A program made the position numbers and the translations under genes. The notes under the pieces are model-generated. The model had not been told where the DNA came from. It did not search any database and saw only the letters and a program-made list of their open reading frames with translations. Below are positions 38,626-50,566 of a stretch of DNA of 64,000 nt, piece by piece. This DNA is from Bacteroidota bacterium (GTDB taxonomy: Bacteria; Bacteroidota; Bacteroidia; Sphingobacteriales; Sphingobacteriaceae), in contig JABDCF010000002.1 in assembly GCA_013288235.1 (NCBI GenBank), forward strand, positions 1-64,000. Reading direction: 5' to 3'. Position 1 is the stretch's first letter, and each line of letters begins with the position of its first letter.

Positions 38626-40386
38626 TTAATAACCCGGATTTTGTTTCAGTTGCGGATCCAGGATAATTTCCTGTTCCGGGATTGGAAAATATTCATTCTT
38701 CCCTTTAACAAAGGTAGCACCGGTTTGTACACTGCCAACACTCCTTGTTTGCTCAACTTTCTGATAAGCATTCAGGTAAGTATCAGCAATACCCCAGCGT
38801 ACAAGATCGAAAAAACGCTGGCCTTCTTCTGCAAATTCCAGTCTTCTTTCAAAGCGTACCGCATTCCGGGCATAAACCTGGTTTGCCCATGGTGTATTAT
38901 ATAAACTCACTTTGTAATTTGCCGATGGCGAACCCGAAGAATGATCTATCGGCTCGGTTGGGCTTGTCATAGCCCTTGTCCTTATCATATTAACATAAAC
39001 ACGCGCCTGTTCAAGGCTACCCACTTCAACTTCACACTCCGCCGCCCATAACAACACATCAGCGTAGCGGATGATATTGTAGTTTACTGCGCTGTTGCCC
39101 ACATAGTAATAGCTTGATATAATGCCGCCAAAGCCTGCACCTTGTTCCGCCTGGGTAAACATGTTTTTAATATTAAGGTACGGCCCGCCAAAAGATTGGT
39201 CGGCAACCCAGCTTTGGCCAGGGTCTAAGCCCCAATCCAGGTAGGGTACCCCCCGTCGGCCAACAGACCAATCTAACCGGGGATCAACGCCGCCCTGGTA
39301 AGGTGTAAATGGTGCAGATGATGCGATACCGTCATCGTTTTTCATATTGGTAACGTTTGAGGTATCAACACCATTTGCATCCAGCATAGGCAAACCATTT
39401 ACATCGGTTTTAAATGCATTTACCAGGTTGAACGATGGTTGTTTCCAATAGCCATAAGTTACATCAGCAGCAGTGCCAACCGGTGATACGCCTGTTTCGC
39501 CCAAATTTGCATTGTTCGGAAGGCTTGTAGGGTCAACTGAAAAGTTTATCTGGAGTACAGATTCTGAATTGTTCTCTGTCCCTACATCAAAATTATCATG
39601 ATAATTAGCTGTTAAAGCATATTTTGTGCCCTGCCAGTTTTTCCCGTTGGCTATAATTGTGGCTAATAATGCCTTTGCATCTGTATATTTTTGCTCAAAC
39701 ATATAGCATTTGGCTAAATAGCATGCCGCAGCCCATTTGTTGGCCTGCCCCGCCAATGGCTGTGTTTCAGGTAAATTAGCATACGCAAATTGAAAATCAG
39801 CTTCTATTTGTGGCCAGATGTTGGCAGTGTTTGGAATAGACGTAAAATTTACTGTTTTTTCATCTACATAAGGCACATTGTTCCACATTTTCTTTGCATC
39901 AAAATGAAAATGTCCACGTAAAAAGCGGCCTTCGGCTATTGCAGCATTTTTTTGTGCTGCTGTCATATCCGTTGCATTTGTAGCGGCAATGATCACTGAA
40001 TTTGCACGGGCAACACCATCGTAATCCGCCGTCCATTTATCATCCAAAAAACCGGTTGTCGCCAACTCCTGGTAATTTTCTATATTAAAACAGTCGGCTA
40101 CCTGGTGCGGGGGGCTGCCTGCGCTGCCACCGAGGTAAGTATCACCTGATGTAATATCGCCATATACCCAGTTGGTACCCGAAGTACCCCACCAGGTGCT
40201 TTTAGTATCGATCCCGGTAAGGTCGTGGTAAGCGCCCACCAAAAGCTGTTGTACCCCAACCTGGGTGTAAAATTTATCGATGGTTAGCCCGGATTGCCCT
40301 TGCGGGGGTACTTCCAAAAAGCTTTTTTTACAGGCGCCCAACATCATTATTGAACCCGTACATATAAAAAGAAATAATTTTTTCAT
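38626..40386 (-). CDS. RagB/SusD family nutrient uptake lipoprotein
   Basis: Lipobox MMLGACKKSFLEVPPQG; NAVRFERRLEFAEEGQRFFDLVRWG; YFPIPEQEIILDPQLKQNPGY. Confidence 0.97.
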   Translation of the reverse strand: MKKLFLFICTGSIMMLGACKKSFLEVPPQGQSGLTIDKFYTQVGVQQLLVGAYHDLTGIDTKSTWWGTSGTNWVYGDITSGDTYLGGSAGSPPHQVADCFNIENYQELATTGFLDDKWTADYDGVARANSVIIAATNATDMTAAQKNAAIAEGRFLRGHFHFDAKKMWNNVPYVDEKTVNFTSIPNTANIWPQIEADFQFAYANLPETQPLAGQANKWAAACYLAKCYMFEQKYTDAKALLATIIANGKNWQGTKYALTANYHDNFDVGTENNSESVLQINFSVDPTSLPNNANLGETGVSPVGTAADVTYGYWKQPSFNLVNAFKTDVNGLPMLDANGVDTSNVTNMKNDDGIASSAPFTPYQGGVDPRLDWSVGRRGVPYLDWGLDPGQSWVADQSFGGPYLNIKNMFTQAEQGAGFGGIISSYYYVGNSAVNYNIIRYADVLLWAAECEVEVGSLEQARVYVNMIRTRAMTSPTEPIDHSSGSPSANYKVSLYNTPWANQVYARNAVRFERRLEFAEEGQRFFDLVRWGIADTYLNAYQKVEQTRSVGSVQTGATFVKGKNEYFPIPEQEIILDPQLKQNPGY

Positions 40387-40411
40387 GTCTGATATATTAA
40401 TTGTAATCAAA

Positions 40412-43400
40412 TTATAAACCCAGGTTTACCCCAAAAAGGAATTTTTGTGAAATGGGATAAGCGGTACCATAATCAATACCCAAATCATTGGGATTGCCAT
40501 CATTTATTTCAGGATCTTGCCCTTTGTATTTGGTTATGGTGAGCAGGTTAAATGCTTGTGCGTATACCCTTAATTTCCTGATACCTTTTATAGCAGGAAG
40601 CGTATAACCGATGGTAGCTGTTTTAAGCCTCAGGTACGAGCCGCTTTGTACAAAAAAGCTCGACGGCGGCGTAGGAGAAGTTACCGAAGAGTTTTGCGCA
40701 AAAATAGGTAAAGTGGCATTTGGGTTCGATGGGCTCCACGTATTTAACGATCCTGCTAAAAGGCCGCCAACCCCTGTGCCGTTTTGATTAGGGTACTCCT
40801 GCATGGCTTCGGCGTAATCAAATATTTTATTGCCATATGATCCCTGGAAGAACAGGCCAAAATCAACCTTTTTATAAGAAAGGTTTAGGCTATAGCCATA
40901 AGTAAAATCAGGTATCGGGCTTCCCAGGTTAGTTTCATCATTAGCATCAATTTTTCCGTCGCCGTTCAAGTCTTTATACATGATATTACCTAAAGCGTTG
41001 GTGGAAGTTATGCCGAGCGAACTTTCTGTAGCATGGCCAGAAACATCAGCAGGAGTACGGTATAAGCCCTGGTATTCATAGCCATAGAACTGGGAAACAG
41101 GTAAACCAACAACGCTGCGTGTAAGGTAAATTGCACCGTTTGACCCATAAACCCCGCCTTGTATAAATGCGCCGGGAAGGCCATCAATATAGTTAACCCT
41201 GTTTTTATCAGTGGTGATATTAAAAGCCATATCATATTTAACCTGGCCTATATGTGAATTGTAGCCAAGCTCCAACTCGATACCTTTATTTGAAAAATTC
41301 ATGATATTTTCAATTGGTGCGGCAGCTGCGCCCGCAGTACCCGGGCTTGGTGGTTGGGCAATTAATTTGTCGGTCGTCCTGTCGTACCAGCTGAAAGCAA
41401 CGGTAAGGCTGTTGTGTAAAAATGATGCATCGAACCCTAAATTGGTAGTTTTGTTAACCTCCCACTGTAGGTATGGGTTGCCAAGCTGGGCAGGATAAAA
41501 ACCGGCTAATGAACTTGTATTGGTACCGCCAAGGTCATAATTACCGAAGGGGCCGGTGGCAAGCAAAGTAAGATAAGCGTTGCCAACATTAACGGCGTTG
41601 TTGCCTGCGGTACCGTAAGACGCCCTAAGTTTAAGGTCATTAAGCCATGAAACATCCTTCAAAAAGTCTTCTTTCGAAATCCTCCAGCCCGCACTTGCAG
41701 CGCCAAAGTTCCCGTATTCCTCCTGTGGCCCAAACAATGATGTACCATCGCGCCTGGCAGTAGCCGTGAATAAGTATTTATCCAGCAAGGAGTAAGTTAC
41801 GTTTGCAAAGTATGATAAATTGGTTGTTTTTGAGCCTGAACCTGAACCAGGCCCCGCTATAACAGTACCGTTGCCCAGGTACTCTGTATTTGGCGATGGG
41901 TACAGGATATTTGTGGCAGTTGATCCGTATGACCGGGAAACATTCTCATTAATTTCATAACCTACCAAAGCGGTAATATTATGTATATGGTTAATGGTAG
42001 TTTCATAGGCCAGTTTATTTAGCCAGCGCCAATCGGTGGTATAACTGCCACCTTCAGTAACGCCGTTTGATGTTATAGGTACCGGCTCCTGGTATGCGGT
42101 AGGGAAATAACCATGGTATTCGTTAGGAAAAAATTGAAAGCCGATCTGGTTGGTATAAGTAAGGCCCTTAATAATTGTGGCCTCGGCATACGCTGAACCA
42201 ACCATAGACTGCGTGTAGCTCTTATCAGCCAGCGAGTTTACCCTGTCGGTGTACGGGTTTCCTGTATTTCCCAGGATGAGGGCGCCGTTGGTGCCCGCAA
42301 AATTACCTGCGATATCATACTTTGGTAATAAAGGTGATATCAGGTATAATTCAGCAATATCGTTATTAGCGCCGCGCCCTTCGGAATTTTGAGACGAATA
42401 AGAAAACTCTACATTCTCGCCTATTTTAAGCCAGGGCTGTATTTTGAATGAGGTATTCACCCGCAGCGAATAACGCTCAAAGTACGAATTCAATAGCGTT
42501 CCCTGGTCGTTTAAATAACCAAAAGTTACTGCGTAATTACTTTTATCAGTAGCGCCGGTAAGGCTTAGGTTGTGGTTTTCGGTAGGGGCATTTTTAAACA
42601 ATGCTCCCCACCAGTTAGTCCCAGCCTTATTTGCCTGTAATATCCGGTAATTCTGATTATTATACAAAGCCGGGTTGGCCAAAGGACTGCCGGCCATTAC
42701 ACCGACATTTGGAGAACCGTTGTTATTTTCGATAATATAATCAGGAAGTACAGCGGAGCTTCCGGTGCCATAAAATGAAGTAGGCGGCGTTAACCCTGCA
42801 TTGATAAAAGAGCTATAATAAGCATCAGCCTGCTGTTGAGGGGTGATGGTTTTTGGTAAGTTCCGGGGCACTTCGACACCATAGTACCCTGTATATTCTA
42901 ACCTGGGCGCACCCATTTTACCGCTTTTAGTAGTGATAACAATAACGCCATTGCTGCCTTCTGCACCATACAATGCAATCAACGATGGATCTTTTAATAT
43001 CGTAAGGCTTTCGATGTCATTAGGGTTTAGCAGGTTCGAAATATCCTGGCTCCCGGCCGATGTACCTACCCTTATCTGTACACCGTCAATTACATATAGT
43101 GGGTCGTTATTCCCAAGTGTGCCTATACCGCGTATACGTATAGTTTCGGGATTGCCGGGTCCTCCCTGGCCGTCAACGGTTACACCTGCTACGCGACCCT
43201 GTATTGCGCCTTCAATACTTGTTACCGGGGTTTGTGCAATTACATCCGCAGAAATTGTAGACGCTGCGCCTGTAACATCGTGCTTAGATTGTTTTGAGTA
43301 ACCTGTAACTATCACCTCATCCAGCCCCTTTGAGTCAGGTACAAGCGTCACTGTTAGTTTAGTTTGACTGCCAACCAATATTTCCTGGGTTTGAAACCCT

Positions 43401-43648
43401 ATAAATGAAAATTGAATAACGTCCGTTGAGGCCGCATTAATACTGAATGCACCGTTTATATTGGTTGGTGTTGAACCGTCTTTGCCTTTTACCTTGACAG
43501 TTACACCCGGCAATGGCGCCCCAGTGTCATCTTTAACGGTTCCTGATATTAAAGACTGTGCGTTTGCCAATTGGCAGCACAATAGCAGTACCATGAGAAA
43601 AAGCATGAAGCCAATACTTCGTGGTAATTTGAGTCGGTGTGTTTTCAT
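40412..43648 (-). CDS. SusC/RagA family TonB-linked outer membrane protein
   Basis: SGTVKDDTGAPLPGVTVKVKG; EVIVTGYSKQSKHDVTGAAS; GSNGVIVITTK. Confidence 0.98.
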   Translation of the reverse strand: MKTHRLKLPRSIGFMLFLMVLLLCCQLANAQSLISGTVKDDTGAPLPGVTVKVKGKDGSTPTNINGAFSINAASTDVIQFSFIGFQTQEILVGSQTKLTVTLVPDSKGLDEVIVTGYSKQSKHDVTGAASTISADVIAQTPVTSIEGAIQGRVAGVTVDGQGGPGNPETIRIRGIGTLGNNDPLYVIDGVQIRVGTSAGSQDISNLLNPNDIESLTILKDPSLIALYGAEGSNGVIVITTKSGKMGAPRLEYTGYYGVEVPRNLPKTITPQQQADAYYSSFINAGLTPPTSFYGTGSSAVLPDYIIENNNGSPNVGVMAGSPLANPALYNNQNYRILQANKAGTNWWGALFKNAPTENHNLSLTGATDKSNYAVTFGYLNDQGTLLNSYFERYSLRVNTSFKIQPWLKIGENVEFSYSSQNSEGRGANNDIAELYLISPLLPKYDIAGNFAGTNGALILGNTGNPYTDRVNSLADKSYTQSMVGSAYAEATIIKGLTYTNQIGFQFFPNEYHGYFPTAYQEPVPITSNGVTEGGSYTTDWRWLNKLAYETTINHIHNITALVGYEINENVSRSYGSTATNILYPSPNTEYLGNGTVIAGPGSGSGSKTTNLSYFANVTYSLLDKYLFTATARRDGTSLFGPQEEYGNFGAASAGWRISKEDFLKDVSWLNDLKLRASYGTAGNNAVNVGNAYLTLLATGPFGNYDLGGTNTSSLAGFYPAQLGNPYLQWEVNKTTNLGFDASFLHNSLTVAFSWYDRTTDKLIAQPPSPGTAGAAAAPIENIMNFSNKGIELELGYNSHIGQVKYDMAFNITTDKNRVNYIDGLPGAFIQGGVYGSNGAIYLTRSVVGLPVSQFYGYEYQGLYRTPADVSGHATESSLGITSTNALGNIMYKDLNGDGKIDANDETNLGSPIPDFTYGYSLNLSYKKVDFGLFFQGSYGNKIFDYAEAMQEYPNQNGTGVGGLLAGSLNTWSPSNPNATLPIFAQNSSVTSPTPPSSFFVQSGSYLRLKTATIGYTLPAIKGIRKLRVYAQAFNLLTITKYKGQDPEINDGNPNDLGIDYGTAYPISQKFLFGVNLGL

Positions 43649-43930
43649 ATAATTTTGGTTTATAATTAATAGTTTAAATTGGTATGCGAATAATATTTAT
43701 GTGTGATGTAATGCTTACCGGTAAAAAGCCCGGTTATATATCTCTATTTTTTAAATAGTATCTCAAAAACTAAATCCAGGGCAACAAAAAAGGGCATCCT
43801 TCTTTCTCTCCATCATCGTAACTGCTTTGTTTTATAGTTTACGGGCGGTTTATAAAGCCCAATTAATGACCGAAGTAAAACAATTTTTTTTTAATTGTGA
43901 AATAAACACTAAAAAATATTTTGAAATATA

Positions 43931-43947
43931 AGTGTAATTTATACACT
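43931..43947. promoter_or_regulatory. Candidate operator AGTGTA-n5-TACACT in the susC/regulator intergenic region
   Basis: agtgtaatttatacact inverted repeat; additional half-site acact upstream near 43907. Confidence 0.35.
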
Positions 43948-44067
43948 ATTAAACCTTCAATATTACGTCCAGGTACACTTTTTGTTAATAGAAAATTTCG
44001 TTTTTATTTTTATATATTTACAATATGTTACATTTACGCCATCGATTTACCAAGTCAAGTATTAGAA

Positions 44068-44775
44068 ATGCAGAAATACTCTAAACAAACCCGGTTATTA
44101 TTAGCGGTTGATTGTATTATTTTCGGATTTGATGGTGAAGCACTAAAAATACTTTTGATAAAAAGGGGCTTTCAGCCCGAAAAAGGCAATTGGAGTTTGA
44201 TGGGCGGCTTTGTACAGTTGAATGAAAGCCTGGACCAGGCATCAAACAGGATATTAAAGCAACTCACTGGTTTAGATGGCGTCTATCTTGAACAACTGCA
44301 TACTTTTGGTGAGACGCAGCGTGACCCGATAGAGCGCACAGTTTCAACAGCATACTTCGCTTTAATTGACATCCACAAATACGAAACACAGCTAAGTAAC
44401 GACTATCATGCCGAGTGGTTCCCGTTAAAACGTGTCCCTAAATTGATATTTGACCAGCAGGAGATGGTGGAAGCTGCTAAAAGGCGCATACGTTATAAGG
44501 CCGCCCTACACCCAATACTATTCGAACTGCTACCCAGCAGGTTTACCCTACCCCAATTGCAGATATTGTACGAAAGTGTTTTTAACACAACTATTGATAA
44601 AAGAAACTTCAGCAAAAGGGTATTGGCAACAGGCTTACTTATAAAATTGACCGATAAAGATAAAAGCAGCTCCAAACGCGGCGCATTTTATTACCAGCTC
44701 AATATGAAGAACTACTATGCCAAATTCCAGGCATTTTTAAATTTTATTCCCAATCCCGACAGTCTTTTGCTCTGA
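44068..44775 (+). CDS. NUDIX-domain winged-helix transcriptional regulator (NrtR/AraR-like)
   Basis: NUDIX-like KGNWSLMGGFVQLNESLDQASNRILKQLTGL with C-terminal winged helix; ATG at 44068 preferred. Confidence 0.85.
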   Translation: MQKYSKQTRLLLAVDCIIFGFDGEALKILLIKRGFQPEKGNWSLMGGFVQLNESLDQASNRILKQLTGLDGVYLEQLHTFGETQRDPIERTVSTAYFALIDIHKYETQLSNDYHAEWFPLKRVPKLIFDQQEMVEAAKRRIRYKAALHPILFELLPSRFTLPQLQILYESVFNTTIDKRNFSKRVLATGLLIKLTDKDKSSSKRGAFYYQLNMKNYYAKFQAFLNFIPNPDSLLL

Positions 44776-44946: not shown

Positions 44947-45321
44947 TTATTTGGTTAATGTACTATCCCGCTCAATCCTCAGGCTTTCTTTGTGAATGGC
45001 ATTCAATAGCCCGGTTATGAACTCTGATGACAGGCCTTCTTTGTTTCCGGCTGCTATACCTTTATCAAGCACCTCTTTAAACCTGGCGGCCTGCAAGGGC
45101 GCAATATGGTTTTTCGCTTTATAAACACCTATCGCCTTTACGATCCTTTCGCGCTCACCTAATATTTTTATAACCTGATTGTCCAGTGAGTCGATCTTAA
45201 CACGCCCCGCGTCCAGGTCTTGTTTGGTATTTATCGCGGCTGATTGCGCAAAAGAGATAGTACTGCCCAACAGGCATAGGGCCGCTGCTGCTAAAAGCTT
45301 TTTAAATAGTTTTTTGTTCAT
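44947..45321 (-). CDS. Exported type II chorismate mutase-like protein
   Basis: Signal peptide; GRVKIDSLDNQVIKILGERERIVKAIGVYKAKNHIAPLQAARFKEVL. Confidence 0.82.
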   Translation of the reverse strand: MNKKLFKKLLAAAALCLLGSTISFAQSAAINTKQDLDAGRVKIDSLDNQVIKILGERERIVKAIGVYKAKNHIAPLQAARFKEVLDKGIAAGNKEGLSSEFITGLLNAIHKESLRIERDSTLTK

Positions 45322-45356: not shown

Positions 45357-46169
45357 CTATTTTCCCTTACTTAACCAGTATTTGTCGAATAATTTAGTAA
45401 ACGAAATACCATTTGGTTTTCCGGATGTTGAATACACGATTGAATATACGCTATCGCGGACAGCTTCTTTTGACAAGTTTTCCCGCTGATAAGCTGACAC
45501 GGACGCGGCTATCATACCTTCTGTTTCACGGGTGAGATCAAAATAAGGGCTAAAAAAGGTTACCAAGCTACTTTTTTTTGTCGCGTCCCTGTAATACATT
45601 TTATATACAACAGTTGAATCCATCTTATCATTTTTGATATCCGGATAATTGATCAATAAAGTATCATTATTTGTTTTCAGCCTGCGGGTAAATGGCTGCT
45701 GGTCGGGTATTTCTATTTGAACAAAAAAGGTCGCACCGCTGCCCTGGGGATATTCACCGGGGTCGAAAAGGAATTTATTTTCCTGCTCAAATATTACCAC
45801 GCCATTGCTTTTTGGCGTGGGTTGCAGGGCGCCAGGAATTTTTTCACTTAAATCGCCGCGGCCGCTTAAGGCTCCTGAAGTTGAACTTAGGTGAAGTGCG
45901 GCAATAGCTAACTCTGAAAACCCAGATCCATCTGATCTTGCCTTAGGGGATTTTGTAAGTATCAAATCTCCTTTGCCTATCATAATTACCAGTAGCTTAT
46001 CTTTGCCCGAAGACCAGTGTATAAGATCAGTGTTTTTTAGTTCCGTTCCGGGGGCTATTGCTTTAGCCCCATATGTAACATTCCCGGTTACTTTTACTAC
46101 GATGTATTGCGCTGCTGCCCTGTTTAACATAAACAATGAGAATATTATCGCGAATATGCAATTCTTCAT
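45357..46169 (-). CDS. Exported protein with FecR-like N-terminal segment
   Basis: MKNCIFAIIFSLFMLNRAAAQ signal peptide at 46169; VVKVTGNVTYGAKAIAPGTELKNTDLIHWSSGKDKLLVI. Confidence 0.65.
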   Translation of the reverse strand: MKNCIFAIIFSLFMLNRAAAQYIVVKVTGNVTYGAKAIAPGTELKNTDLIHWSSGKDKLLVIMIGKGDLILTKSPKARSDGSGFSELAIAALHLSSTSGALSGRGDLSEKIPGALQPTPKSNGVVIFEQENKFLFDPGEYPQGSGATFFVQIEIPDQQPFTRRLKTNNDTLLINYPDIKNDKMDSTVVYKMYYRDATKKSSLVTFFSPYFDLTRETEGMIAASVSAYQRENLSKEAVRDSVYSIVYSTSGKPNGISFTKLFDKYWLSKGK

Positions 46170-47512
46170 AATTGTGCGTTTTTTAATTTTTTCATTTTGC
46201 GCTGTTCCCAAATTTCGTACATAGATTCAAGTCCAATAAATATGATGGCTGGGGCAAGGCTAACATTTATGTTAAACACCAAAATCGAAATATACGATAC
46301 CAACATCAATCGTAAATAATAATCAAATGCCTTTTTGACAAATGGGAACCGGTTAATAAATAATAAGAATCGTTTTGATTTTAATTTATAATTGAAAACC
46401 ATATTAGGCCACTCCTTATAGATTGCCCTATGACTTAATAAGGAAAAACATATAATTAAATACAGTATCCATAACTTAGGGACATATTGATTTCCGTTTA
46501 ATAGCGACAAATATATGTCGCATAAAATAACAGTTCCCGGCAATTTACCAAAAGGCGTACCATACATAATATCATGCATGTCACCATCGAAGTTTCCAAT
46601 AAATATTATTTTACCTTTAATGATATTTTGTATAAGGCCTGTATTATTCTTTATACTTAACAAAGAACCTATGTGATAGAGCTGATTTTTTGAATTACTT
46701 TTTATAGTTTCTTCATCATAGTAATATTCGGGCCAGATATAGTTAAAACTTAATTGTCCGTTACATTTGGTAAAATAATTAGAACCGGAATAAACAACCC
46801 CATCTGCTTTGCTATTTAAAAGGCTTGGAAGAGAATTTTCATTTATATCGTTATAATGTAGCCGGAATTTATTCAAGTTTGAACCATATGTCTCATAATC
46901 TACAATGCCATACCTGGCTTTGTAAATAGGTGTATCGATCTTACCCGCTTTCAATGAAACACTTATCGCTATATTATTACTTTTTTTTATTTCTGATTGA
47001 ATGCTGTCATCAATAATAGTGTCCGGCAAAAAGATATCTAATTTGCTATCTCTTATCTTTTTTTGAATGGCTTTATCGGCGGTATATTTATAAGGATAAT
47101 CAAACTTAAGGTCTAACACAACAAATTGAGGCTTCAATTTTGAGTTATCGATTATTTGCAGTAGCTTTAATATTTTGTAACGATCCGATACTTCAATATT
47201 ACCATATCCGGAAGTGTCATCAATTAAATTTAAATCTTTACCTGTATTTATAAATACAAATTGTTTGTTTTTAGTCGGGTCGCTTTTTAATATTTTATTT
47301 AGTAATTTATATTTAAATAGGTTTACGAAATTGAAAAAAGTGTCTTCTTTTACGACTGTAAAAGAAGAGTTTTGATAAAACCAGGAAGCTAAAAAGATAA
47401 GAATACCTGAAAGCAATGAGGTCAAAAATCGTTTTATTTTAATTTTGCCATCGATCTTGTGCATCGGCCGAGAGGATTTCCTGGGTGATTGTTTGTTATA
47501 TAATTTCCACAT
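46166..47512 (-). CDS. CHASE2-like sensory domain membrane protein
   Basis: FVVLDLKFDYPYKY; GKIIFIGNFDGDMHDIMYGTPFGKLPGTVILCDIYLSLLNGNQYVP; C-terminal TM segments. Confidence 0.75.
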   Translation of the reverse strand: MWKLYNKQSPRKSSRPMHKIDGKIKIKRFLTSLLSGILIFLASWFYQNSSFTVVKEDTFFNFVNLFKYKLLNKILKSDPTKNKQFVFINTGKDLNLIDDTSGYGNIEVSDRYKILKLLQIIDNSKLKPQFVVLDLKFDYPYKYTADKAIQKKIRDSKLDIFLPDTIIDDSIQSEIKKSNNIAISVSLKAGKIDTPIYKARYGIVDYETYGSNLNKFRLHYNDINENSLPSLLNSKADGVVYSGSNYFTKCNGQLSFNYIWPEYYYDEETIKSNSKNQLYHIGSLLSIKNNTGLIQNIIKGKIIFIGNFDGDMHDIMYGTPFGKLPGTVILCDIYLSLLNGNQYVPKLWILYLIICFSLLSHRAIYKEWPNMVFNYKLKSKRFLLFINRFPFVKKAFDYYLRLMLVSYISILVFNINVSLAPAIIFIGLESMYEIWEQRKMKKLKNAQL

Positions 47513-47521
47513 TAGCTTGCA

Positions 47522-49471
47522 TTACCTCTTCTTAAAATAAAACTGCCCGCCCTCGCTGCCAGCAACCTGCATATCGCGCAGCGTAGGTTCGGTACCCGTT
47601 TGCGCATTAATACCTGTGAATATCAATCCATATAATTGCCTTGCCGACAAGTATTTGTTTGTATTATCGGTTAGTGATTTTAATATCATTTGCACATAGG
47701 CGCTTTTACCGGGAACCGGCTCAGACCCGCCACTTGTCAGCAACTGCCGGCTATTAAATTTATATTCATACTTTGCCGGCGCCTCCATCCCCCCGCGCAT
47801 GGCCCCGCTAAAACAAGCATCGGCCATGATCAATATATGATGGGCTTTACAGCCTGCTATTAAATCTTTTATTTCAGTATTAGAGACGTAGTCAATTTTG
47901 TCTTCTGCACCCAGCGGCACCCAGTAAGCCATATTGGTACTTTCTACAAAATAGCCGTGGCCCCCGTAAAAAATAACCAGATTATCGTTTGAGCTTAATT
48001 GGTCAACCCTGTTGCTTACGGCTGTAAGAATCTCTTTCTTGCTTTTATTAAATATTGTATCAACATCGGCCGCATTAAAATTGTATTTATCAATAAACAT
48101 CTGTCTTAAACTCCTGGCTTCGGCAACCGTTGTGTTAAGGGCTGGCCATTTTGCACTCTTGTAATTACTATTTGCTATAAATATGGCATGATACCGCTCG
48201 TCAGCAGCAATCGGGGCAATTTCGTCATCTGACGATCCCCTGCTATCTGCAACTTTCGAGGTGATGCTGAAAGTTTCTGATGTATTCGCCCCCTTTTTAT
48301 CAAAAGCCTCAATTTTTATATCCGCAGTGTTTTTATCGATGTAAATACTAAAAAAGCCACCGGGTTGTAAATCAGTTATGGTTTTTCCATTTACCGAAAC
48401 AGATGTTACATCTGACAGGTCTTTAACGAAACCGCTTACATAAATTTCTCCTTTACCGGTAACATCGGCTGCTACGCTATGCCCGTTAATTATTTGCGGG
48501 GTCTTTAATATAATTTGAGGGGGGGTCTTGTCATTCTCGTTTCGTATATCTATAAGCTTGTTAATTAAATTTAAATTCCTCCTGATATCCTCATTACCGG
48601 GATTTAATACAAACCTTTTTTTATATACCTCGACCGCTTTATCCAAACTTCCGTATTGCTGCTTAAAAATATCTTCTACCTTTTTTTGGGCTTCATTATA
48701 ACATCCATTTTCGGGTGTTATAGTTAATAATATATTTATCGCTTCATCGTAATGGTGCCTTAATAGTTCATTATCAGCCTTTGCAGTAAACACCTGGCAG
48801 GTTTTTTGATTATCTGCAGCAATTTTAGCATTCCGCTTATCAACAATATTTTTTATAACACTATCAGTAAGCTTCGCCTGCAAATTGTTTAAAAAATCAT
48901 CAAGGCAGGGTATTGTTGATTTAACAATATCATCGGTAAATGGCTTTGGAGGAATGGGAAGCTGAAGTGCGGCACTAATTAGGGTTGCATTATCCTCGTT
49001 ATAGTGTTTACGCGAATCGCAGGTGATATTAAAATAGGGGCTTGAAGTAGCGGCATCATAGGCCGTTAGTAAAACAGTAACAGAGTTGCCGTCCTGGGCG
49101 GAAACTGCATTAATACCCACCTCTACGTAAATGTCTGCACCTGAATATCCAATAAGGGCATTTTTTGCATCCGACTGGGTTTTTGCGTTAGCTATTAGCG
49201 AGTTGCTGATTGCCTTCAGCGTAGCATCAAAATCCTGGGTAATAAACCCTCTTTCATTGAATCCTGTATTTATTTGGACGATTGCGCCGCGTAAGCTGTT
49301 ATCTGTTTCCAGTTTTGTCTTCAGAGCCTCGCCGGGCCGGGCATATGGAATAACTATTACTTTTAACTGTGCGGCTTTTATTTTTGTTGGATCGGCATTT
49401 TGCGCCATCAATGTTTTTGATAAAACTACAATCAACAAAAACACTAAAATGAAAGGCTTAGGTTGTTTCAT
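47522..49471 (-). CDS. Exported caspase-like (peptidase C14) protein
   Basis: Signal peptide; YHAIFIANSNYKSAKWPAL; LVIFYGGHGYF (His); ILIMADACFSGAM (Cys). Confidence 0.9.
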   Translation of the reverse strand: MKQPKPFILVFLLIVVLSKTLMAQNADPTKIKAAQLKVIVIPYARPGEALKTKLETDNSLRGAIVQINTGFNERGFITQDFDATLKAISNSLIANAKTQSDAKNALIGYSGADIYVEVGINAVSAQDGNSVTVLLTAYDAATSSPYFNITCDSRKHYNEDNATLISAALQLPIPPKPFTDDIVKSTIPCLDDFLNNLQAKLTDSVIKNIVDKRNAKIAADNQKTCQVFTAKADNELLRHHYDEAINILLTITPENGCYNEAQKKVEDIFKQQYGSLDKAVEVYKKRFVLNPGNEDIRRNLNLINKLIDIRNENDKTPPQIILKTPQIINGHSVAADVTGKGEIYVSGFVKDLSDVTSVSVNGKTITDLQPGGFFSIYIDKNTADIKIEAFDKKGANTSETFSITSKVADSRGSSDDEIAPIAADERYHAIFIANSNYKSAKWPALNTTVAEARSLRQMFIDKYNFNAADVDTIFNKSKKEILTAVSNRVDQLSSNDNLVIFYGGHGYFVESTNMAYWVPLGAEDKIDYVSNTEIKDLIAGCKAHHILIMADACFSGAMRGGMEAPAKYEYKFNSRQLLTSGGSEPVPGKSAYVQMILKSLTDNTNKYLSARQLYGLIFTGINAQTGTEPTLRDMQVAGSEGGQFYFKKR

Positions 49472-49621
49472 ATTTAAAATCCAAATCTTCGATCATATTA
49501 CTTTTGTTACGGACAAGCCATATTGCAGATATAATTAACGTGTTACAACGATAAAATAAACAGCAATACAGGAAAACGATGTTATCGATTACTAAAGAGC
49601 TGACAGTTGACTCAAGAATCT

Positions 49622-50566
49622 CTACTCCTTCTTTGACCTTACATACAGCACGCTTCCACTTGTCATCGAATCCTTTATGGCCTGGCCGCCGGTTAAAACG
49701 GAGCAAAGAGTAAGATCGCCGTCAATCGATTCGATTTTCAGTTCCCCCACAATTTTATCACGCCTGTAAGTTTTTCCCCCAGCTTGCAACATTTCAGTAC
49801 TGATAAGGTCGAGTTTAATTTTATGATTGAATAATCCACCTCCCAATTTAGTTAAAGTCATATTTTTTATATCCTTATCGCCGGGACAGACTGCTTCAGT
49901 ATTTCCATTGTCGAACATCTCACTTCCTGAATTTATTAATATCTTTTCGGGAAGGCCCTTCTTTTCTGATTCCACTTTAACAATAGTCATTATAGGAGGG
50001 AAAAGGTTTCGTACTTCTATTTGAACTTGAGTTTTAAGCTTGCACAATGCATTAGTCAGTATGGACGATCCTGTCTTCGAAGTAAAATCGGCACTTGTGA
50101 CAATTATCGGCTGACTATACATGACCTTGCCTGTCTCCACTGCGTTTATTTCGAGCAGCAGGTGCAATATCCCATGGTACTGAACAATTGTTGTGGTTGA
50201 TAACAGGCTTTTATTATCACTTTCTTCAATATCCATTGGATCTACTATTCCAGTGATAATGTATTCAGCACCAGCCAAATGCCCCTGTTCTGCAACCACT
50301 TTAGCATACATGGATGTATTTTGTTTGGCTGCCTCAAGCTCATTTTTGAGTTTTTCTGTTACTCCCCTATCCAACAAATAAAATCTGTCTTTATTTACAA
50401 AACAGCTTGCCACTTCTGATTGAACCAGATTGGCGACAGATACGGCATTGGGGTTTGAGCATGTAAACGGGATTATTGCAACATGTGTCGGGGACGTTTG
50501 TGCATCCGACAGACTAACGAAGAACAATAAAAACAGGGTAAGTGCTAAAAATAATAATTTTTTCAT
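49622..50566 (-). CDS. CsgG/LpoB-like exported protein
   Basis: Signal peptide; VAIIPFTCSNPNAVSVANLVQSEVASCFVNKDRFYLLDRG; AEYIITGIVDPMD. Confidence 0.7.
   Translation of the reverse strand: MKKLLFLALTLFLLFFVSLSDAQTSPTHVAIIPFTCSNPNAVSVANLVQSEVASCFVNKDRFYLLDRGVTEKLKNELEAAKQNTSMYAKVVAEQGHLAGAEYIITGIVDPMDIEESDNKSLLSTTTIVQYHGILHLLLEINAVETGKVMYSQPIIVTSADFTSKTGSSILTNALCKLKTQVQIEVRNLFPPIMTIVKVESEKKGLPEKILINSGSEMFDNGNTEAVCPGDKDIKNMTLTKLGGGLFNHKIKLDLISTEMLQAGGKTYRRDKIVGELKIESIDGDLTLCSVLTGGQAIKDSMTSGSVLYVRSKKE

Follow-up and report, generated by a model that had tools for sequence, protein, structure and literature searches.

The window, i.e., the whole stretch of DNA that was analyzed, comprises 64,000 nucleotides of contig JABDCF010000002.1 (assembly GCA_013288235.1, Sphingobacteriaceae). 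It belongs to the genome of a soil bacterium that is assembled to 4.37 Mb in 224 contigs and is 71% complete. The following features form the operon described here, given in the order of the genes:

49622-50566, minus strand: LpoB/CsgG-like exported protein, 314 residues (Pfam LpoB, 1.4e-4; CsgG, 0.022)
47522-49471, minus strand: exported caspase, 649 residues (domain matches, fold, and catalytic dyad)
46166-47512, minus strand: CHASE2 membrane protein, 448 residues (Pfam CHASE2, 8.1e-8; hydropathy and positive-inside charge pattern; family alignment)
45357-46169, minus strand: small exported β protein, 270 residues (unnamed family, the usual neighbor of CHASE2)
46166-46169, minus strand: ATGA stop/start overlap of the CHASE2 and small exported protein genes, coupling the pair

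The LpoB/CsgG-like and caspase genes are separated by 150 nt and the caspase and CHASE2 genes by 9 nt, while the last two genes overlap in the ATGA. The four same-strand reading frames and the overlap had been reported in a first-pass annotation of the sequence and were confirmed. The Bacteroidota promoter consensus was matched 5 times, compared with 3.1 expected, and none of the matches was located directly upstream of the operon.

The caspase is composed of a Sec-type signal peptide, a DUF6175 domain (residues 49 to 205), TPR-like helices (approximately residues 210 to 312), an Ig-like β domain (approximately 318 to 406), and the caspase domain (approximately 420 to 649). Whereas the first-pass annotation had correctly described the protein as exported and as carrying a YGGHGY/DACFSG dyad, it had left the N-terminal DUF6175 domain unmentioned; this domain matches positions 34 to 182 of the 293-position Pfam profile (2.3e-20, 73.4 bits, cut-off 23). 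Signal peptides were scored with a simple rule based on hydropathy and the cleavage site rather than with SignalP, and by this rule the LpoB/CsgG-like protein and the small β protein possess one as well. The two motifs span residues 502 to 507 and 551 to 556, so that His505 and Cys553 form the dyad. Both residues are invariant in all 17 aligned caspases, and Asp551 of the DxC motif is likewise present and invariant. Pfam Peptidase_C14 (PF00656) gave no match in the window caspase; relatives beside other CHASE2 genes do match it. The NCBIfam model caspase_w_EACC1 (NF047832) recognized the window protein with 2.2e-17 and 63.3 bits, which is below its cut-off of 140 bits. When the predicted caspase fold was submitted to Foldseek, a metacaspase (7qp1; 5e-9) and MALT1 (3v4o; 5.3e-9) were the nearest solved structures. 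On the strength of the predicted fold and the dyad, the protein is assigned to the caspase-like proteases of clan CD. The AlphaFold model of the full caspase displayed low confidence over the DUF6175 region, and for this reason the fold of that region was left uninterpreted. The family profile detected no clear caspase domain other than that of the window caspase in the window genome, an incomplete assembly, and a search of viral contigs with the caspase sequence gave no match.

The CHASE2 match of the membrane protein (32.6 bits) exceeds the Pfam cut-off of 26.3 bits. Hydropathy predicts four transmembrane helices, with the first one (residues 24 to 42) being followed by an extracytoplasmic CHASE2 loop of approximately 300 residues and by three C-terminal transmembrane segments. 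The positive-inside pattern places a short loop of 33 residues, nine of them Lys or Arg, and a positively charged tail on the cytoplasmic side. The chain stops 13 residues past the last transmembrane helix, leaving fewer than 75 cytoplasmic residues in all. A Pfam scan of the window protein and three relatives revealed no output domain (kinase, cyclase, or GGDEF), in agreement with the initial description of a CHASE2-like sensor lacking an output kinase or cyclase.

Searches of Pfam, NCBIfam, and the PDB placed the small exported β protein in no relevant family. Its predicted structure (pLDDT of 77) is β-rich with a helical C terminus, and a fold search with this model returned only generic Ig/fibronectin-like matches. 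The "FecR-like" label initially given to this protein could not be upheld, as Pfam (PF04773) gave no match and hhalign against eight FecR proteins from the window genome yielded a probability of 0.5%.

Relatives of the operon were sought via CHASE2 homology alone, so that the choice of loci did not depend on caspases nearby. The first search, covering 395 genomes of the class, yielded three relatives, one of which matches the gene order of the window, with four tandem exported caspases ahead of CHASE2 and a small exported protein. With CHASE2 profile searches, 13 of the 301 genomes of the order and 5 of the 396 genomes of the phylum were found to contain relatives, the window genome being counted. 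In a scan of 85,462 species genomes, for which a 12-sequence CHASE2 alignment proved too diverse and an 8-sequence alignment worked, 31 CHASE2 loci were found, mostly in Bacteroidota and additionally in Ignavibacteriota and Desulfobacterota. Two closely related CHASE2 genes on contigs labelled as cyanobacterium and Thalassobius (L097 and L098) were nested among Flammeovirgaceae; as they fall inside Bacteroidota, these contigs are probably mis-binned. The small β protein gene adjoins CHASE2 in 37 of 48 loci, and a clan-CD protease, usually a caspase and sometimes a TPR-CHAT protein, is located within four genes in 29 of them. Of the 138 genes up to two positions away from CHASE2, 35 encode proteases, compared with 4 of the 275 genes more than four positions away (odds ratio of 23, p of 2e-14, not corrected for phylogeny), and on these figures a chance neighborhood was rejected. 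On the CHASE2 tree, caspase linkage takes 7 changes, compared with 15.3 when the labels are shuffled. The conserved unit is a trio of genes encoding the CHASE2 protein, the small exported β protein, and the exported caspase; the co-occurrence expected at the outset across Bacteroidota was found for these three and extends beyond that phylum. The features on which the original interpretation depended are retained in the relatives as well, with the dyad conserved throughout the caspase alignment and signal-peptide-like starts, according to the same simple rule, in 35 of 41 caspases, 4 of 5 CHAT proteins, and 35 of 38 small proteins.

Within the genus of the window organism, 9 of 150 genomes, including the window's own, encode a CHASE2 protein that matches the one in the window. 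The other eight genomes contribute nine loci; each of these combines CHASE2 with the small protein and a caspase, in changed order, and at L067 the caspase is on the opposite strand. At L116, the locus of the nearest relative, CHASE2 comes first and the caspase last, with the small protein between them, as opposed to caspase, CHASE2, small protein in the window, and the association of the trio has therefore outlived rearrangement. At L071 and L072, from more distant members of the genus, CHASE2 and a caspase were recognized and the small protein was not. In Pedobacter, Solitalea, and Flavihumibacter, one to four tandem exported caspases lie ahead of CHASE2. Several copies of the trio are predicted to be translationally coupled, as indicated by overlaps of -4 or -1 between the CHASE2 and small protein genes (L062, L069, L075, L076, L078, L079, L090, and L091) and of -4 between the caspase and CHASE2 genes (L062, L075, L076, and L081). 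The caspase N termini differ among the loci and include TPR, WD40, and WG repeats, LpoB, and DUF6175. TPR-CHAT proteins were identified at L087, L090, and L099 (Saprospiraceae/Lewinella), where no caspase was found, and at L083 (Desulfobacterales). The TPR-CHAT proteases include the CRISPR-associated Csx29, which is cytoplasmic and RNA-guided. The CHAT proteins at these loci resemble it in combining a clan-CD protease with TPR, but they begin with signal-peptide-like sequences and are encoded near CHASE2.

With the sensor, the small protein, and the protease all predicted to be extracytoplasmic and with no output domain at hand, local control of an exported protease is the economical reading. 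Specifically, a complex of CHASE2 and the β protein in the inner membrane may control the exported caspase in the periplasm, an interpretation to which we assign about an even chance of being correct. The caspase would be exported by the Sec pathway, and the CHASE2 protein would span the inner membrane, its sensor facing the compartment that also contains the caspase. As no cytoplasmic output is available, CHASE2 would have to act through contact with another protein, either in the membrane or in the periplasm, with the small β protein as the likely bridge or inhibitor. In the window genome, the LpoB/CsgG-like protein may in addition dock at the DUF6175 domain of the caspase, placing the latter at the outer membrane or the cell wall. 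A signal perceived by CHASE2 would then release or activate the protease, which, by analogy to metacaspases and orthocaspases, would probably cut envelope proteins after Arg or Lys. The gene content, its conservation and linkage, the intact dyad, the rule-based export signals, and the hydropathy-derived topology are observations; complex formation, the direction of control (i.e., which partner activates or inhibits which), specificity, and substrate are what we infer. It is possible, albeit at less than an even chance, that the sensor, adaptor, and caspase-family executioner, all extracytoplasmic, represent an undescribed signalling class of Bacteroidota, Ignavibacteriota, and Desulfobacterota in which an exported protease of clan CD, either a caspase or a CHAT protein, is the only output of a CHASE2 receptor, and that the module is the envelope counterpart of intracellular caspase pathways.

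The roles of protease and sensor might also be reversed, with CHASE2 and/or the small protein as the substrate. The caspase would then cut the CHASE2 loop, and the cut protein would signal via an unlinked cytoplasmic partner, comparable to the regulated proteolysis of anti-sigma factors. Such a mechanism would be in line with the 19 of 48 CHASE2 loci that have no protease in reach, some of them on short contigs: the protease is therefore not obligatory, and the pair of CHASE2 and small protein, often found where no protease is linked, exists independently. These loci count against local control of the protease, as do the exported caspases without CHASE2 at L039 and L040 and the generic fold matches of the small protein. 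The positively charged cytoplasmic loop of CHASE2 could serve to bind the partner. However, the cytoplasmic portion of CHASE2 is small, neither an output nor a partner gene was recognized, and tandem caspases beside a single CHASE2 are better suited to control of proteases than to a single substrate, so that we consider this alternative unlikely, if far from negligible.

The first gene of the operon has a looser relationship to the other three. Its product is slightly below the Pfam cut-off for LpoB (22.2 versus 22.3 bits) and further below that for CsgG (14.5 versus 20.8 bits). In four other genomes, homologs of this protein adjoin stand-alone DUF6175 genes or are one gene apart from them, and no caspase-domain or CHASE2 match was found near these pairs in the stretch covered. 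A small operon for LpoB/CsgG-like and DUF6175-like exported proteins is conserved in Sphingobacteriaceae (L149, L150, L151, and L152). A comparison of the other trio loci with the window protein did not reveal a separate LpoB/CsgG-like gene, and a conserved unit of four genes, as implied by the first-pass annotation, was rejected. The LpoB/CsgG-like gene rather appears to be an accessory that goes with the DUF6175 N terminus of the caspase and not with the core trio. The fusion of DUF6175 to the window caspase suggests that two modules merged in this operon. In Plebeiobacterium sediminum (L103:7070-9073), a caspase linked to a CHASE2 pair itself carries an N-terminal LpoB domain, which suggests a functional connection. 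DUF6175 was not found to be mentioned in the literature searched.

Both the linkage of DUF6175 to LpoB/CsgG-like genes and the Plebeiobacterium fusion would also agree with a module for envelope assembly or maturation, in which the caspase, together with the LpoB/CsgG-like protein and DUF6175, processes exported proteins for the cell wall or surface structures and CHASE2 is a passive anchor. The idea also fits a papain-like C1 protein that is exported, carries DUF4384, and is encoded next to exported caspases in several genomes (L082:4700-6127, L076:6332-7771, and L116:3069-4535). We nevertheless regard it as improbable, given that no separate LpoB/CsgG-like gene was found at the other trio loci and that curli, T9SS, or peptidoglycan-synthesis genes were not recognized beside the operon.

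Caspases and CHAT proteases serve as effectors in several bacterial conflict systems. Immunity or programmed death, set off at the envelope when a phage or predator is sensed and carried out by the exported caspase, is very improbable here: the fusion of CHASE2 to caspases in EACC2 systems (PMC8195603) and the patchy occurrence in the order mentioned above would be compatible with it, but a defence library gave only weak generic caspase/SIR2 matches to the four proteins of the operon, a typical defence protein was not found among six neighboring window genes, and the trio has neither an NTPase nor a nucleic-acid sensor. The defence scan, limited to the operon and these six neighbors, argues weakly against immunity, to which none of the findings points specifically; a role in envelope stress is one that we infer.

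Coupling of a caspase to a CHASE2 sensor is known from a metacaspase-CHASE2 fusion of the cyanobacterium Trichodesmium, the caspase of which is predicted to be cytoplasmic (PMC3501461, PMC2853523), and from EACC2-caspase proteins, which can carry CHASE2 (PMC8195603). In these cases, both parts reside in one chain, whereas the window encodes the caspase separately, as an exported protein that shares the sensor's side of the membrane and is accompanied by a third exported partner. Relative to these fusions, the predicted topology is inverted. Bacterial metacaspases with an N-terminal helix, maybe a signal peptide, have been listed (46 sequences; PMC3501461) and resemble the window caspase in this respect, but linkage to CHASE2 or a β protein is not mentioned in the parts of that article consulted here. 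The Burkholderia BiofilmReg operon (PMC5192318) likewise encodes a CHASE2 membrane sensor together with an exported partner, in that case a FecR/LysM protein; its CHASE2 protein, however, has a histidine kinase output and a response regulator, while that of the window has no output domain, a partner that fails the FecR tests, and a linked protease. No paper combining CHASE2, CHAT, and FecR was found in the literature searched, and no description of the split, exported caspase/CHASE2 arrangement was found in a search outside of which most subscription literature and preprints lay. Given its recurrence in distant bacteria, the trio looks like a real envelope module for protease control that is as yet undescribed. 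Discussion of bacterial caspases mostly concerns effectors of death or defence in the cytoplasm, and the trio, by placing an intact caspase outside the inner membrane under a sensor that lacks a cytoplasmic output, would extend caspase biology to the envelope if this reading is true. As the ligands of CHASE2 are unknown, it would also offer a simple genetic system for finding CHASE2 signals and outputs, and it points to an uncharacterized exported protein family that marks these loci.

Several neighboring genes deserve mention. The C1/DUF4384 protein is a possible second protease of the caspase pathway, and genes resembling it in their start sequence, the only part compared, adjoin the caspases at L039 and L040. 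In the window, an exported type II chorismate mutase (Pfam CM_2, 8.8e-18) is encoded at 44947-45321 on the minus strand, 35 nt downstream of the small exported protein gene, and is possibly cotranscribed with the operon, which lies on the same strand. A NUDIX protein with an NrtR/AraR-type winged-helix regulator domain (43921-44775, plus strand) is located beside a SusC/SusD-like pair (38626-43648, minus strand) and is likely a regulator of sugar use.
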